Part shown: positions 1 to 9,440 of the stretch, piece after piece
Layout of the letters: every line of letters begins with the position of its first letter
Numbering within the stretch: position 1 is the stretch's first letter
DNA from: Monosiga brevicollis MX1
Lineage: Eukaryota > Opisthokonta > Choanoflagellata > Craspedida > Salpingoecidae
Assembly (NCBI RefSeq): GCF_000002865.3
Contig: NW_001865075.1
Span: 191,811 to 241,798 of the forward strand
DNA length: 49,988 bases
Direction of reading: 5' to 3'
Notes under the pieces: generated by a model
Databases searched by the model: none
What the model saw: the letters and a program-made list of their open reading frames with translations, nothing else
What the model was told of the DNA's origin: nothing
Program-made: the position numbers and the translations under genes

Positions 1-781
1 TGTGTGATGAATCAACTTGCAGGGAGTAAGTACCGCGCCAATGGCAATGGGTCACTGTCTGTTTCGATTTGCGAGTGTGTCTGTCGGATGTGATGATGAA
101 CAGGGGACACCTCTCATGCTGGTGGTTTGCTGATGTGTTGGGACGTGGTGTGATGCTCCATGGCCTACGCTTCGTCGATTTGACATGGGCCGGGGCTGTA
201 TGTATGGCGTGTGTGTGATGAATCAACTTGCAGAAAGTAAGTACCGCGTCAATAGCAATGGGTCACTGTCTGTTTCGATTTGCGAGTGTGTCTGTCGGAT
301 GTGATGATGAACAGGGGACACCTCTCATGCTGGTGGTTTGCTGATGTGCTGGGACATGGTGTGATGCTCCATGGCCTACGCTTCGTCGATTTGACATGGG
401 CCGGGGCTGTATGTATGGCGTGTGTGTGATAAATCATCAACTTACAGGTTGTAAGTACCGCGTCGGCAGCAACAGGTCACTGTCTGTTTCGATTTGCGAG
501 TGTGTCTGTCGGATGTGATGATGAACAGGGGACACCTCTCATGCTGGTGGTTTGCTGATGTGCTGGGACATGGTGTGATGCTCCATGGCCTACGCTTCGT
601 CGATTTGACATGGGCCGGGGCTGTATGTATGGCGTGTGTGTGATAAATCATCAACTTACAGGTTGTAAGTACCGCGTCGGCAGCAACAGGTCACTGTCTG
701 TTTCGATTTGCGAGTGTGTCTGTTGGATGTGATGATGAACAGGGGACACCTCTCATGCTGGTGGTTTGCTGATGTGCTGGG
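1..781. repeat. Tandem array of a 211-bp unit, about 3.7 copies
   Basis: Near-identical units start at 1, 212, 423 and 637. The spacing is 211, 211 and 214 bp; the third and fourth units carry a 3-bp insertion near their start. The fourth copy stops matching at about 781. Each unit has one short block where an acceptor-like CTTGCAG or CTTACAG is followed three bases later by a donor-like GTAAGT. No long coding frame survives on either strand, so the array is probably intronic or 5' sequence of the ankyrin-kinase-PARP gene that follows. The array begins at the window edge and may be longer. Confidence 0.93.
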
Positions 782-816
782 ACTGTTCATGACGTGCATG
801 ATGCTGAGCAATATAG

Positions 817-3800
817 AATGGATCTACGCCGCTGTACGATGGCCTCTGTTCCACGGACATTCTGATGTCATCGACGTCCTATTGGAGCATGGCGCAGACC
901 TTGATGCCAAAAACACAGTTAGTTTTGCCTGTGTGACCAAACCCTTATTCTGCCTTTCCGCGCGGTGCCCACCGTCGTTCTTCGCATTGTGTTAAAAGTC
1001 GCTACTTTGAACCTCCACTGTTCTTTGTGTACCGTTTGAGCTTGAATCAACTGTTGTACACGTGCTCCTTTGCTTTTTTTCGGCGCCTCAAATTTTCATC
1101 GTTTTTTGTTCGATTGCTTTCGCCTCACCTTTTTTTTAAGGCTAAGTGGGCCTCTTTCACACACCGCCGTTGCTTGGCATTGCCCCCACATTGCCACCTC
1201 TATTTTTGACCAATTCATTGCACCTCTCATCTCTCCTTTCTTCTTATGGCTTGTTCGCCCCGTTTGGCAGGAAAACCAGACACCGCTCGACTTAGCACGC
1301 CAAAACGGCCATGGCGACAAGGTGGAACGCATATTTGCAGCTTACAAGGCTGCACAAAACGCACCCCCCCATTCAACTTCTACGCAAACTGCTCCTGCTA
1401 CGCAGCTTGAGCCATCTTGGCCGCCAACGCTGCCTGACGACGTACCCACCTTGAAGGTGTGTCCAAATCACCTCGTACCAACGGCTTTTCTTCCCCCGCG
1501 GTCCAATCATCTTCATATTCGCACTCCTTTACTATTGCACTTTGGAACAGGCGACAGCCTCGGTGGTCATGGCAGTCGAAGCCTGGCTCCAGCCACTGCT
1601 GCCCACGAATGCCATCACCCACCCGTTTCCGCACCTCGACGCTTTTGTCACCAATGCCCAAAGCAACGCCGGCGTGCGAGTGTCTGCAAAAGTGATCAAA
1701 CAGAGAATTGACGAAGCGCCAGTGGATTTGCCTCAGATGGATTGGGCGGCTTTTCAAACAATTGCAGCCAACGCCCTTGCCTCGCTTGACCAGGTGTTGA
1801 AAATAGCCGAGGCCCTCGCTGCCCGCATGAGCCAATCGGACCCAGAAGCCACCACTCTTAAAGCAGAGCTCATGGCAATGCACGATCTGACGTGCCAACC
1901 CGACCTGAAGCCGGCCTTTCATGAACTTTGCGAAGCACTCACACAATGCCCCGCTCCACCTGCCCCCAGCCCTTCGGCACCGAAAACCCCCCCGGCAAAT
2001 CTCACAGCGGCCATTGACCGACTGGCTAGCCTTCAGAACGTGGGCTCGGAGCACTCACGTCTCCTGAGGACTAGCAACAACCAGATTGAGCGCCTCATAC
2101 TCGATCTCATTGATGCCCTGGATACCCTGGCGGAAATGGGAATCAAGGATACGAGTAACCGCGTTCGAAGACTGCGACAACAAGCCAAGCGCCAGCCAAT
2201 CGAACAGACACCTCCTCAGAGCTTGTCCGCAGCCTGGAAAAAACTCTGCCGGGCCCACGAGAAGCTCAGCCAATCCAATCAGAATGGTCTTGAGCCAGTT
2301 GCGCAGTGGCAACCACCTCCCGACTACGAGCATTACGCCTGGTATCAAGCGTTTGTGCATCACGAAACCCAATGCCTGGTGCAACAGCTACAAGACATGA
2401 ACAACTGGCGAGAAAAGACGATGTCCGTGCTGTCTTCGTGTATGGATCTTGCAGACAATCTGGCTGAGAGCGTTGATGATCAAACTGTATCTGCGCATAA
2501 AGAGCTAGCCGAGTTGCACGAGCAGATCAAAGCAATTTCTTTCTTTCTCCAGGCTGCGCCCCCGGACATGCGATCTGGCCTTGGGGACAGATTGAACGAA
2601 ATGAAAGCTCGACGCGACACCTTGCAAAGACAGCTTCAAGGCCCATCGGATGACGTGGCAAAGTTGGCACAACTGCTGCATCAACATTTTCCGGCCCTCC
2701 TGGTATTTTTGTGCCCGGATCAGAGCATGTTGGGAGCGCATCTCCGTACCGTGCTTGGCCCCGATCTTCCGGTCAGCCTCATCTTGGAGGCCATGACCGA
2801 AGTGGACGGATCATTGACGCTCCTCAGCCTAGGCCAACTTGAGCTGATCTACATCCAAAACCACAAGGTGTACAAAGCCCGCGCACAGCTGCCAAATTGC
2901 CCTGAGCAAGAATTGGCCGTCAAAGAGTATGCGTTTGCTCGACAGCAGCAGGATCAGTTCCGTACTTTTCTTCGCGAGCTTCGCGCCATGCGTAAGCTAC
3001 AACATGCGCACATCATTCCAGTCCTGGGCGCGCTTGTGGATGTGCGAGATGGGCATCCAAGTGCCTACCTGGTGCAGCCATGGTGTGCGCAGGGTGACCT
3101 GCAGCAGTGGTTGAGCAAGGTGACTCGCCATGTGGCCACCTCGGGCGTCATTAAAGGGCTGATGAACCAGCTGCGCACGGCCCTGGCCTTTATGCACAGC
3201 AAGGGCTTAGTGCACCGTGATGTCAAGCTGAGCAACGTCATGCTGGACGGCTCGGAGGATCACCCTAAAGTACGGCTGGGCGATTTTGACATTGCCAAGG
3301 CGGCGGCTGAAGCAACGTTGTTGCCTTGCACGGCCACTGCATCGTCGGGCACGGCAGGCTATGTCGCACCCGAGGTCCTCTTTGGCAGGGGTCGCGTGGG
3401 TGCGCGTCCAACACAGGATGCCTTTTCCTTTGGCTGCGTTCTCTACAATACCTACATGTTCCCACAGACAGTACCGCCAGCTAGCTTGCCCACGGACCAG
3501 CTGGTCGAAAAGAGCAATTGGGATCCAACAGCAACAACCACAGAAAATAAGGCCTGCAAGTTTTCGCATCTAGCTGCCGAGGTTGGTGTTGACTTTTGTG
3601 GCAGTGATGATAGCGCGATCGTTTGAGGCCGACGCTCATGCTTGCTTTTGGTGCAGATGTGCGATTCGACGAGCAGTCTATATCAGGAAACGCGTGGTTT
3701 GCTTTCCACGGATCCGATGCAACGTCCAAGTCTCCTGAGTGTTCAGGTAGTTGGAGACCAGCCCTCCACTGATGTGGGACCAGCCATTGAAGTACTGCAG

Positions 3801-4686
3801 AATGCACCCGAGCTCATATCCGAGGTGTGTCGTTCGTGCGCTTGCTGCGTTGGAGGTGGGACAAGCCGTTACCAACCTAGTGCCTTTTATGTTGCGCGTG
3901 ACAATCAATGCAATTAGGTGGCTGAGCTCTTGAAGCAGCTGGGCGCCGACGGACGAGGTCCCAGAAACATGACTGTAAAACGGGTGGAGCGTGTGCACAA
4001 TCCCGTACTGTGGGAGCGCTACCGCAGCAAGCGACGTGAGATGGCCGAGCGCACGGCAAACTACGAGCACTTTGCCCAACTCCAATCAGCTACGGTGGAT
4101 GCGCTGCCAGGCCAACCAGCCTTGCTCCGAGATATGCCGTGCCAGGAGCGCCTGCTGCTCCATGGCATTGGCCCCGATCACGAGCTGCGTGATAAGATTG
4201 TGCGCCTGGGCCTCGACTATCGCTTTGCTGGCAGCAGTGCCGGTACTCTCTTTGGGCGGGGCATCTATCAAGCCGACCACCCCGGCAAGGTGGGCGGTCG
4301 TTTGGCAAATGCTCTATCTTGTCACAGCAAAATCTTATGAGTACACACCATGTTCATAGAGTCATCAATATGCCAAGCCATCTCGCCCTAATAAGGAGCG
4401 AACATTGATCATTACGCGGGCGTTATTGGGACGTGCGTGTGCCCATAAATCCCCCGATCCCAAAGCCTTGGATGCACCCCTTTTGCCCCATGCGCCCAAT
4501 AACGAGCGGTGCGTGAGCCACAGTCGCGCTTGCATGTTATACCCCATTCCTGTCCTTTTCTTAACACGTGCATTCTTCTTTAGTTATGACTCGGTGATTG
4601 CCACGCCGGCTGGGCAGTATCGCGAGGTGATCATGTTTGACAATGCCCAAATCTACCCTGAACTGGTCGTGTACTACACGGCTTAG
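817..4686 (+). CDS. Ankyrin - degenerate kinase - PARP fusion protein, 5' end missing
   Basis: Likely exons are 817-917, 1271-1456, 1551-3581, 3657-3824, 3918-4289, 4396-4508 and 4584-4686 (TAG). An ankyrin unit ends in GHSDVIDVLLEHGADL and continues over an intron into NQTPLDLARQNGH. A helical region of several hundred residues follows. The kinase-like domain has AVK, HRDVKLSN, TAGYVAPEV and FSFGCVLYN. Its DFG motif reads DFD (3282-3290) and the glycine-rich loop is not recognisable. The end is a PARP catalytic domain with LLHGIG, FGRGIYQAD, YDSVIATP and REVIMFD. This gives His, Tyr and Glu at the H-Y-E triad positions, so ADP-ribosyl transfer and even polymer formation look possible. Ankyrin plus PARP recalls tankyrase, but a kinase domain is not part of tankyrases. 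Two uncertainties remain: the first ankyrin unit is frame-broken, and the 4289/4396 junction, although in phase, omits residues normally present in PARP domains. Earlier exons lie outside the window. Confidence 0.82.
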
Positions 4687-5038
4687 ATTCTCTCGACAAT
4701 CTGCGGTTCGGTCCTTGCCATGGCAATGTCTCCTTCGGGTGTTGCACTGCCTGCCGAGATAAGTATGCCAACATGTTTGACAATGCCCAAATCTACCCTG
4801 AACTGGTCGTGTACTACACGGCTTAGATTCTCTCGACAATCTGCGGTTCGGTCCTTGCCATGGCAATGTCTCCTTCGGGTGTTGCACTGCCTGCCGAGAT
4901 AAGTATGCCAACATGTTTGACAATGCCCAAATCTACCCTGAACTGGTCGTGTACTACACGGCTTAGATTCTCTCGACAATCTGCGGTTCGGTCCTTGCCA
5001 TGGCAATGTCTCCTTCGGGTGTTGCACTGCCTGCCGAG
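4632..5038. repeat. 140-bp tandem repeat duplicating the PARP gene 3' end, 2.9 copies
   Basis: Copies begin at 4632, 4772 and 4912. As far as can be read they are identical until the third ends at 5038. Each copy holds the final codons of the PARP-containing gene (from MFDNAQ to the TAG stop) plus about 85 bp downstream. Copies two and three therefore carry an untranslated duplicate of the coding end. Identity over the stop codon and spacer points to a very recent duplication or an assembly artefact. Confidence 0.95.
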
Positions 5039-5479: not shown

Positions 5480-8400
5480 ATGAAGGCCGAGGCGGCAGAG
5501 ACCGCTTTGATGGCGGCGCAAGCGCGATTGCCCGTAGACCGCTTCGCCGCGCTGCGCTCGAGCCTCGATGCCCTCGTAGCGGCGCTGGCACAACAACAAG
5601 AGACTGAAGAGGCACAGCGCCGTAAAGCTGAGCAGTTGCATACGGACGTGCAGGTGAGCCCGGCATGACATGCTACCTGGGGCCTCACTGCCACCCCAGC
5701 TTCCTCTCCGCACTCGCCTCCTCCCTCTCATCTGGCCCGTGCATGCATCGTTCCTTGAAACAGAACCAACGCCAACGGCTGGCTCAGCACGATGGCAGCA
5801 TCCTCCAAGAGGGGACCCCACAGATGGCGCTGCACCAAGAGCTTCTGACCGCCAGCAACGAGCTCACACTCGTTCATCGGAAGCTACAAGACCGCGAGGA
5901 AGCCATTGACCAGCTCAAGGAAGACCTGGCCAACGCCAAGTTTGACCTCGGCGTCTCCCTCGATAGTCGCGGTGACAGCGAGCGCATACAGCAGATTGAA
6001 CAGCAGTCAACCGGCTTGCAGGCCGAGATTGATCGTGACACGTTACAGGCCTCGGAGTTGCAGGAAGAACTTGAGTCCTTGCGCGCCACCGTTCTTGCGA
6101 GTCGCGATCGAGAGGCCGCTGCCGCGGCTACTGTACAAAGCCTCCAAAACGATATGCAGGCAGCCAACGCGCTCCCCCAACGCATTGCAAATCAGGCTGG
6201 GCTCCTCGTTAACAACAAAAACCGTTGTGCCGCTGAACTTGAGCAACTCGAGCAAACGCTGCAAAATCGGAACCAAACCCTGGTTGATTTGCGCGACAAC
6301 CTCGCCCGCGTGCAGCAGGATACCAGCGCGGTCGATGACGCCATTGAAGCCGCCATCGCCGATCGCCTGCGTCTCGAGCGACTCCAGCAACAACATGAAC
6401 TTACGATTCAGAGCACTGAAGAAGCCAGTGTCGACCTAATTGGGCAACGTGCCCTGCTTGAAACCCAAATAGATTCTGCCGCGGGCCGCCTTCACTCCCT
6501 TGATGAGCAGGTGGCTGCCATCAAACGCCATCAAGACCGTGCCTTGCGTGAGCTCAAGGCCGCCCAGAGCAAGGAGGAAACGCTACGCTTGGCACGAGAC
6601 ACGGCTGTCAAAGAACGTGACCGGGTGGCTGTCGCGGTGGATGCTCGCCGCAAAGAAGCTCTAGATATTGCCGGCGGACTAGAACGACTCGAGGCCGACC
6701 TAACCACGAGTCAGCGCGCATGGGAATCCACAGCAGGCGTCTCGCGCGCCGCCGTGGCCAAGGTACAGGGCATGCATGCCAAAAACCGCTCCCTTGAGAA
6801 GGAGCTGGCCCATCTGGTGCGCCAAAGTGCCGACTTGGCTCGGCAACATGCGGCTGTCCGTCGGGCCGTAGATCATGCAGGCGCCGAAAAGCTGCGCTCG
6901 CTGCAAGTGTTGACGGCGCAGGAACAGCACCTCAACTCGGCCGCCCTGGGCCAGCGAGATGCCAAGCGCAGCCTTGATCAAGTGGGTTCAAAGGTCACGG
7001 CCGTTGCTATGCTTCTCGGGACCGCCAAGAATGAGAAGAACCTCTGCCTCACGCAGATCAACAGCCTGCAGCAGCGCCTGGCCGAAATGCGTGACAAACA
7101 GCGCATGTTGCACACGGAAATTGAGATTCTTCGCGCCTCGGCTGAGGAGAAGGATGTCAAAATCAACGAGATCAAGGCTGACGCCGCTGCCCGTGGCGTC
7201 ATCCTTGAGGGCCTGCGCGGAGAAGTCAATAGCACACGGCAGCAAGAGCGCGAGCTGCAGACCCAGGGCAAGAATCTGGGGCGCCTCAACCAAAAGCTGT
7301 TGGAAAGCATAGAAGTGGTGGAGAAGAAACTGGCACAGCTCCGTCAGGAGCAGGAAAGCGTCGTTCGCCAACGTGACTTTCATGCCAAGGGATTGGTGCG
7401 CCGGCAACACGACTTGGCTCAGCTTTATGAGAACCTCAACGTCACCAACAACACGCTCCACCAGGGCGAGGTTGGTACACATCGGCATGCCTGCGCTCAT
7501 TTATGTCTTTGACCTGCAGCCCTCGAGCTCACTCTCTCTCACCCACTTGGCTGGCCCTGGATGGATTTGGTAGATGGAATTGCAAGAGCGCGAGCAGGAC
7601 CTGAAGCTGCTCAATGCCGAAAAGGCTGAGCTGCTTCGAGCTATCCGTCTCCTCAACAAAGCGGTGCCTGTCAAGCACAAACTACAGAACGATCTCCTGG
7701 AATCGCAGGTACAAGAGTGCCTGTGGCTCGCCGGCCGCACTCTCGCCCTTGCCACGTGCGGATCCTTTGCAGTTGCGACCGCACCTATAGCCCTGACCCC
7801 TCACGCTTGTCCCTTGGTAGCTGGAACTGGTTTCCTGTCAGAAGCGAACGTCCGAACTTGAGGAACAGCTGCAATCACATACGCGCGTACAGCGGCAGCG
7901 TCCCGAGGATGAAACAGAAGACCTTGATCCGGTGGCGCTTGAGGAAAAGGCGACGCGCTTGGCCGAACGCTTGGCCAACAAGGAGGAGCAGGTCTTGGAA
8001 CGTGACATGGTGCTTGCAGAAACCGAACGTCTTCTGGGTCGCGCTCTGCGCCGACTCGAGGCCGGCCGGGGCGACGCACTGCAGGCCACCGCCACCGCAC
8101 GCGACTTTCAGATGCGCCTCAACGAGCTGCAGCTCAAGCTCAAGGCCTGCGTGTCCGAGCTGGCCATGTACCAGACCAAGGCCTCACAGTATCAGCGCGA
8201 AGCAGACGACCTTCGCGATACACTTGAAATGGCCGAAGCCAACCTCCTGGCCAACCGCCCTCCCAATCCCGAGGTGGGTTTAGAGACAAGTCATGTCGGT
8301 TCCGCGGCAACCACACGAGGGCATCCGACATGGCACTGCTTATTGCGCCGGTCAAATTACCAGACGAGGCATGCCATTGCGCGCTCATGTTCTTGCCCTC

Positions 8401-8773
8401 GACATGCCATGGTCTTGTTTGCAGATTGAAAGCGAGTGGCAACGGTTGAAGCGCCGTTTCAAGCAGGAATGGAATGCCGCGCTATCTGCCAGTATGGATC
8501 TTACCCAAGGTTCGACACCATCGTACAGTGACACGAGTTTTTGTTTGTTTGTTCGTGTGCTTTTTCTCATTTTTTTTTTTATGCTTTGGACTGCCAGGTC
8601 TATCACAGACGCACCGCCAAGGCGATTATGTTCCAGATGCCGATGGTGCGCTTCCGATTGCAAAGCCGTTTGGTGCTCAAGCGCCCTTCAGGCCGGCCAA
8701 TCGGCCACCCAAGCTACGGCATTATCGTAATCTTGTCAAAGCCCCCGCGGAATCAGCTGTGGCCATGCCCTGA
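5480..8773 (+). CDS. CCDC146: CCDC146 / MBO2 ciliary coiled-coil protein
   Basis: Six exons (5480-5653, 5764-7470, 7574-7708, 7842-8273, 8425-8509, 8598-8773) join in frame with GT-AG borders and encode about 902 residues; the human protein has about 955. Almost the whole protein is coiled coil. Family landmarks appear in order in the last third: LYENLNVTNNTLHQGEMEL, then RLAERLANKEEQVLERD, then RLNELQLKLKACVSEL with a short proline stretch, an IESEWQRLK segment, and a C-terminus with IAKPFGAQAPFRP followed by LRHYRN. This matches the conserved end of CCDC146. The family (Chlamydomonas MBO2) sits in cilia and basal bodies and is needed for normal flagellar beating and sperm flagella. The start is the ATG at 5480, the first in the exon that joins in phase to exon 2. 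The gene converges on SEPSECS. Confidence 0.9.
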
Positions 8774-9440
8774 GGGCTTGATAGCTTTATGGCTTGCGCC
8801 TTTGATGGCGTACTTTGCCGCTCTAGTTTTCCGAGTAAATGTCTTCTGCCCCGCTCTGGGATCCCCGCTGTGCGGACCACTTCCAGATACGGGCGTCAAG
8901 TTGATTGATTGATTGATTGAGATTCATCGGGTCGCAAAGTGGAGATAAACTTTAGGGATCGAACACTTGTTTCAATGCTTCGGTTTACAACACACAACCA
9001 ATCAAGGGCGATTCGCGGCACTTGCGAACGACATCAAAGCTCGTTCAACATTCAACATGAGCTATGGCTTAAGGATAACCCCAGCCAGAGAAAGGATTGC
9101 AAGGACTTCTTTTGTAGTCCCCGAGGTTATTGCCTGCTTGATTGAGTCTGCTCGTTTACCCTTCTTTTCTTTTCTGTTTTTCTCTTGCTTGCTCCCTCCA
9201 CAGTCATGCGCAGATTTTCGGAGTACCGGTCAGTGCAGTCTCTCATATGGCTGCCATTTCCTGCAGCCTGCAGGTCGTTTTTCTATTTTTCTGCCCAAAA
9301 AAAGAATTGAAAAAAAAAATCCTTTTCTTCAAATTAATGTCTGCAAAGTTTGTTCAGAAAATGCCCATGCTTCACAGAAGCAGAGCTGGAGGGGGGGGTG
9401 TATGAAGATCTACTCAGGGCGACCAAAGAGCGGAATTCCG
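8774..9440. other. Convergent intergenic region, CCDC146 / SEPSECS
   Basis: The 667 bp between the CCDC146 stop and the SEPSECS stop on the other strand hold no convincing gene. There is a short TTGA tetranucleotide repeat at about 8902-8919 and an A-rich patch at about 9296-9320. Both 3' UTRs should lie here. Confidence 0.6.

Follow-up and report, generated by a model that had tools for sequence, protein, structure and literature searches.

A multicopy kinase–PARP gene family with exon-encoded ankyrin repeats in Monosiga brevicollis, a candidate family of intracellular receptors

The kinase–PARP gene of the window

We analyzed a stretch of 49,988 nucleotides of the choanoflagellate Monosiga brevicollis (hereafter the window; C20:191811–241798 of its own genome, 39.5 Mb in 57 contigs), near the start of which lies a gene encoding a protein kinase domain followed by a PARP domain. 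A sequence-only reading of this locus had proposed a single tankyrase-like chain made of ankyrin units, a kinase fold with HRD and APE motifs and a PARP domain with His, Tyr and Glu at the H-Y-E positions. A Sec1-family exon of this genome agrees with UNC18 of M. brevicollis (PDB entry 2XHE) at 47 of 48 aligned residues. The gene structures and functions given below are predicted from the sequence.

We found that the kinase and the PARP domain are exons of a single gene and that the path from 789 to 4686 stays open. When the seven coding exons (Table 1) are spliced, they yield 1045 residues followed by a stop codon (4684–4686), and the closest upstream in-frame stop is at 666. The junctions 1456/1551, 3581/3657 and 3824/3918 have GT/AG sites and are in phase 0, as the sequence-only reading had stated, although that reading missed two further introns, 4290–4359 (phase 0) and 4509–4583 (phase 2), both of which recur in all 18 relatives read. 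Similarly, the junctions 3581/3657 and 3824/3918 are seen again in the 17 relatives with the exon between them. This linking exon (3657–3824) is constrained, with a ratio of nonsynonymous to synonymous substitution rates (dN/dS) of 0.186, which is the best evidence short of RNA that the kinase and the PARP domain form one protein.

Both domains were recovered by Pfam, the type of profile search that had been proposed as a check. The Pkinase match on exon 1551–3581 begins at profile position 24, and the residues of the eukaryotic protein kinase signature (K, E, HRD...N, DFG Asp and APE) are in place, with K at 2922, E at 2976, HRD at 3213 and APE at 3366; the motif at 3282 reads DFD instead of DFG. 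The spliced PARP domain matches PF00644 with an E-value of 9.6e-15. AlphaFold2 models of the helical-plus-kinase exon (15 alignment rows) and of the helical part (16 rows) reached a mean predicted confidence (pLDDT) of 47 and 55, respectively; both are too poor to use, and nothing is concluded from the failed kinase model.

The ankyrin portion of the proposed chain is weak in the window copy, which has no intact 99-bp ankyrin unit. What remains at 817–917 is 101 bp long and is consequently out of frame with the next exon, the units of the relatives being 99 bp. The second half of exon 789–917 is half an ankyrin repeat, and the path starting at 789 keeps this half together with the terminal half-repeat of the next exon; the joined stretch matches Ank with an E-value of 1e-6. 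A counterpart of exon 1271–1456 was found by tblastn in 13 of 18 relatives.

Table 1. Features at the beginning of the window (positions are those of the window).
Feature	Position	Strand	Remarks
214-bp tandem array, 3.6 copies	11–783	+	at the place where relatives carry ankyrin exons
Possible first coding exon	789–917	+	ATG 789 and start inferred; open frame of 43 codons; donor GTTAGT
Remnant of a 99-bp ankyrin unit, 101 bp	817–917	+	from comparison with relatives
Exon with terminal half ankyrin repeat and linker	1271–1456	+	half-repeat at about 1271–1336
All-helical region	1551–2780	+	first part of the 2031-bp exon 1551–3581; low-confidence models
Protein kinase domain	2781–3581	+	Pfam E 1.6e-34
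Intron, phase 0	3582–3656	+	
56-aa exon linking kinase to PARP	3657–3824	+	conserved in 18 of 19 copies
Intron, phase 0	3825–3917	+	
PARP exon 1, with catalytic H (4161) and Y (4266)	3918–4289	+	PF00644 E 2.5e-6 for the exon alone
Intron, phase 0	4290–4359	+	
PARP exon 2	4360–4508	+	
Intron, phase 2	4509–4583	+	
PARP exon 3, with catalytic E (4624) and stop	4584–4686	+	
140-bp repeat, 2.9 identical copies	4632–5038	+	begins inside the final coding stretch and extends beyond the stop

Tandem repeats lie at both ends of the gene. Within the upstream 214-bp array, whose units match at 96% and each carry splice-like signals (ttgcag...gtaagt) separated by a few bases, no intact ankyrin exon was recognized, and neither the array nor the remnant ankyrin unit had a blastn match in the fetched family loci. 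In the downstream 140-bp repeat, the final part of PARP exon 3 and the stop codon recur beyond the gene, either through a very recent duplication or as an assembly effect. Farther along the window (5480–8429), adjoining frames on the + strand are rich in Glu, Gln and Leu and resemble a long coiled-coil protein.

A family of kinase–PARP loci

Is this gene an isolated fusion? A genome search with the window PARP exon returned 57 places. With the kinase piece there were 110 matches; the 48 strongest places were taken for pairing, and the matches beyond these look like ordinary distant kinases. At 45 of the 57 PARP places, one of these 48 strongest kinase places lay upstream on the same strand, 306–484 bp away, which left 12 PARP places and 3 kinase places unpaired. 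The 45 pairs are spread over 25 contigs, and we count the recurrence of this kinase-then-PARP order as more than chance. The fusion first described as a single chain stands for its kinase–PARP part, as one locus of about 45 and not as a singleton. Since some copies are not intact, the figure of 45 refers to loci and not to working genes. On C9, C7 and C14, second PARP copies that have decayed and contain stop codons were seen ~2 kb downstream of intact ones.

We read 19 copies in detail, namely the window copy and 18 fetched loci; three others fetched as PARP hits (L040, L047 and L048) had no family match and were dropped. None of the 19 copies has its frame interrupted between the kinase and the PARP stop. 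In 18 of them, each of the four junctions (kinase/linker, linker/PARP1, PARP1/PARP2 and PARP2/PARP3) is GT/AG with the same phase, the exception being L035, which has no linker match. The median pairwise dN/dS was 0.131 for the kinase, 0.167 for PARP exon 1 and 0.146 for PARP exons 2–3 (18 sequences each, as for the linker, with L035 excluded) and 0.245 for the helical part (15 sequences, L036, L042 and L045 being left out as well).

The kinase K, E, HRD Asp, Asn and DFG Asp are kept in 17 of the 19 copies, and the third residue of the DFG motif is Asp in 18; L045 has AFD, and L035 has GFE. The glycine-rich loop GxGxxG is absent from every copy, its place being taken by NHKVYKA or near variants. 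By its HRDVK and GTxGYxAPE motifs, the family kinase is classed as Ser/Thr-like. It has no close solved relative, and TYK2 gave the best score (1.3e-17).

The PARP H-Y-E triad is kept in 19 of 19 copies, which, with the PF00644 match, agrees with the PARP superfamily (ARTD), marked by a PARP fold with H-Y-E or a variant triad. A profile built from 8 of the 19 family domains was compared with solved structures only, by score and not by tree, and gave 1e-17 for PARP12, ~4e-16 for PARP15, 1.5e-11 for PARP14, 1e-10 for tankyrase-2 and ~3.5e-9 for tankyrase-1. On these scores, the catalytic domain is PARP10–15-like (clade 3), with the catalytic domains of PARP12 and PARP15 as the best matches, and the stretch VQKIERVQNLALWEVYQ is common to PARP12 and the family PARP domain. 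Relative to the PARP10–15 group, the family keeps Glu at the third triad position and is fused to a kinase, and, unlike these neighbors, no macro, WWE or CCCH domain was found by Pfam in the scanned window exons. In other PARPs, Glu at this position allows chain formation.

Searches outside the species with the PARP profile gave 21 pattern matches in viral contigs and 75 in prokaryote genomes, none of which was confirmed. The titles and abstract openings surveyed do not describe a kinase–PARP fusion family, and papers on the M. brevicollis genome and kinome may mention one.

Variation of the ankyrin exons and placement of the loci

At least one ankyrin unit lies upstream of the enzyme half in 14 of the 19 copies. 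Every such unit forms an exon of its own, exactly 99 bp long, in phase 0 and bounded by AG and GT. On the real strand, we counted 78 units over the 19 copies, with a maximum of 11 in L031; the same finder returned none in 388,970 shuffled bases and none in 82,976 reverse-strand bases. The copies without units are the window copy, L036 (upstream all N), L039 (495 N), L042 and L045. The ankyrin units of the sequence-only reading are thus largely missing where they were proposed but present in most of the family. In L031, the units and their introns recur with a 217-bp period, and the introns are near-identical. Arrays are not unique to the kinase–PARP family, as they are present elsewhere in the genome among the matches listed. 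Two of these, with single-repeat hits at C48:1025529–1036080 and C12:61561–65193, lie far from any kinase–PARP pair, and the 3.5 kb following the C12 array downstream showed no kinase–PARP.

Over 76 units, the most variable codons were 1, 3, 8, 11 and 12. Because codons chosen by entropy make the comparison partly circular, we based the test on a set of binding-surface codons (1, 3, 11, 12, 31 and 33), which we take to match the randomized binding positions of designed ankyrin proteins. From 37 disjoint within-array pairs, we used the 25 that differ at no more than 30 of 99 nucleotides (11 arrays). In these pairs, the proportion of nonsynonymous differences (pN) was 0.326 at the surface codons compared with 0.105 elsewhere, and the proportion of synonymous differences (pS) was 0.152 (Fisher p 3e-10, surface codons versus synonymous sites). 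Pooled, the surface set exceeded all but 0.125% of random codon sets. Considered singly, 8 of 12 arrays placed the surface set above random codon sets at the 1% level; pN was greater than pS in 8 of 12. In 79 close pairs (54 of them from L031), which were picked for similar introns and scored on the partly circular, entropy-chosen codons, flanking intron divergence was 0.108 compared with a pN of 0.466. By the test on the 25 pairs, codons of the expected ankyrin binding face change faster than synonymous sites.

The loci also show exchange of parts. L030 and L031 are 99% identical in PARP exon 1 and 91% in the kinase and share no ankyrin units, whereas L029 and L033, both on contig C28, are 97% identical in the helical part and 92% in the kinase, with PARP exons at only ~70%. 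By this comparison, the L029/L033 pair is mosaic, with the breakpoint lying between kinase and PARP.

With contig ends taken as a proxy, the pairs are concentrated toward the ends. On contigs of at least 500 kb, 11 of 29 pairs lie within 40 kb of an end compared with 2.8 expected, a count reached in 0 of 5000 simulations; on all contigs, 18 of 45 pairs lie near an end compared with 9.5 expected (p 0.0012). At the end of contig C51, beside a family member, positions 8900–9422 of L031 suggest by eye a fragment of a helicase-like ATPase (PTGMGKT), and this placement is reminiscent of subtelomeric helicases.

Interpretation and relation to known systems

What could such a family do? High copy number, an enzyme half under purifying selection, fast change on the expected binding face, swapping of arrays and parts and placement near ends form together the pattern of a recognition-receptor family. 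The loci make up a family of about 45 members, probably specific to this lineage and in many cases close to contig ends, that encodes in order an ankyrin array, a helical region, a Ser/Thr-type kinase and a PARP domain. We consider it somewhat probable that the predicted proteins act as diversified intracellular sensors, resembling NLRs but lacking a NOD, whose outputs are a kinase and an ADP-ribosyltransferase. The ankyrin array would bind varied targets, most likely foreign or non-self intracellular proteins, and binding would either assemble the chains or open them. The kinase would next phosphorylate its own protein or partners, and, as the output, the PARP domain would ADP-ribosylate targets with NAD+. 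In the window copy, the loss of the array with retention of the enzyme half may mean that it acts as a constitutive or partner subunit or that the gene is on its way out; with its repeat array gone, it is a poor example of the family. In sum, the earlier observation was partly confirmed and much extended, and its interpretation is partly supported.

Several observations weigh against the receptor interpretation. The window copy itself lacks an intact ankyrin unit, and in the L031 array only 11 of 17 slots pass the strict exact test; the 6 of 17 that fail indicate that some L031 units are broken or off-length. The surface codon set presumably reflects the randomized positions of designed ankyrin proteins, for which residue numbers were not found in PMC10542815. 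In L032, L041, L043 and L050, between 6 and 34% of random codon sets do as well as the surface set, and the arrays in which pN does not exceed pS are older ones with high pS. Furthermore, three units are identical between L029 and L033, which makes a few of the pairs dependent on one another, and contig ends may differ from chromosome ends. Some loci are broken, with stops inside the kinase hits at C17, C40 and C47, and copies can lose either enzyme: in the divergent L035 (C37) the kinase is dead and PARP H-Y-E is kept, and the divergent L054 (C50) keeps HRD and DFD and has its PARP H and Y replaced, as read at these two triad positions. L055 keeps HRD, DFN and the PARP H and Y.

Could these features arise without any recognition? 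The broken units and stops in several loci, the decayed second PARP copies on C9, C7 and C14, mosaics such as L029/L033 and the clustering of pairs at contig ends all fit a fast birth-and-death, partly decaying family in which the ankyrin exons vary simply as a result of tandem duplication and gene conversion. We regard this explanation as unlikely, though it deserves real weight, because dN/dS is 0.13–0.25 over all enzyme-half exons and the amino-acid excess is confined to the surface codons. A stronger doubt concerns the window copy alone, which may be a pseudogene or an array-less leftover of a family that is itself real. It has no 99-bp ankyrin exon, only a 101-bp remnant unit and a 214-bp array, and its last coding stretch is tandemly repeated; yet its frame is open from ATG 789 to the stop over 1045 aa, every catalytic residue is kept, and its close relative L050 is intact. 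We hold this possibility to be a substantial one, while doubting it on balance. That the kinase and the PARP domain are two separate neighboring genes is very improbable, and we rejected it on account of the constrained 56-aa linking exon and the conserved phase-0 junctions; moreover, the short kinase–PARP spacing is repeated at 45 loci.

The family could also be an ordinary ankyrin-scaffold PARP that works on fixed endogenous partners in the manner of tankyrases (PARP5a/b, clade 4), with a kinase inserted. Tankyrases likewise carry ankyrin repeats ahead of an H-Y-E PARP domain, an N-terminal array being present in 14 of the 19 family copies and not intact in the window copy, and PARPs with ankyrin repeats are mentioned for M. 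brevicollis in PMC4245714; kinase-domain terms were not found in the text of that paper. However, the family places a kinase and a helical region between ankyrin and PARP, it is multicopy (~45 loci) with changing arrays, and its PARP profile scores tankyrases lower than PARP12/15. Pfam scans revealed no SAM domain, either in the window exons (E up to 1) or in the helical and kinase pieces of three relatives (E up to 0.1), and PMC9688111 reports that tankyrase was not found in M. brevicollis. We consider this explanation improbable and, on the PARP12/15 profile and the lack of SAM in the pieces scanned, rejected the tankyrase-like label given to the locus earlier.

A signaling enzyme with phosphorylating and ADP-ribosylating activity in the same chain would be unusual. 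The constant length and phase of the ankyrin exons make recombination and splicing of the repeats easy, and this one-repeat-per-exon layout would allow diversity by alternative splicing. The kinase–PARP family is unusual and testable: the diversification of intracellular receptors in unicellular eukaryotes becomes accessible through strain sequencing, and L054, which looks kinase-only, and L035, which looks PARP-only, offer natural contrasts. More broadly, it is quite possible, and we propose it tentatively, that the sister group of animals built, independently of the NLRs of animals, plants and fungi, hypervariable, exon-per-repeat ankyrin receptors, often near contig ends, without a NOD and with phosphorylation and ADP-ribosylation as outputs, for innate immunity or self/non-self recognition.

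Compared with NLR/STAND receptors, the family shares a repeat array under diversifying selection, with the per-array exceptions given above; no NACHT or NB-ARC domain was found in the Pfam scans made. Fungal ankyrin NLRs, as described in PMC4986451, likewise have internally similar repeats, selected sites on the binding face, a multigene organization and varied effectors, and the same paper lists a PKinase effector domain among them; the M. brevicollis family differs in having one repeat per exon and a PARP output. The brown-algal ROCO-LRR proteins, as described in PMC11378527, are multigene candidate receptors that likewise have one repeat per exon with constant phase, as is the case with constant length in 14 of our 19 copies, and that show positive selection at the concave face. 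The brown-algal proteins use leucine-rich repeats (LRR) and ROC-COR, features absent from the kinase–PARP family, which uses ankyrin and kinase–PARP instead; the two probably arose independently.

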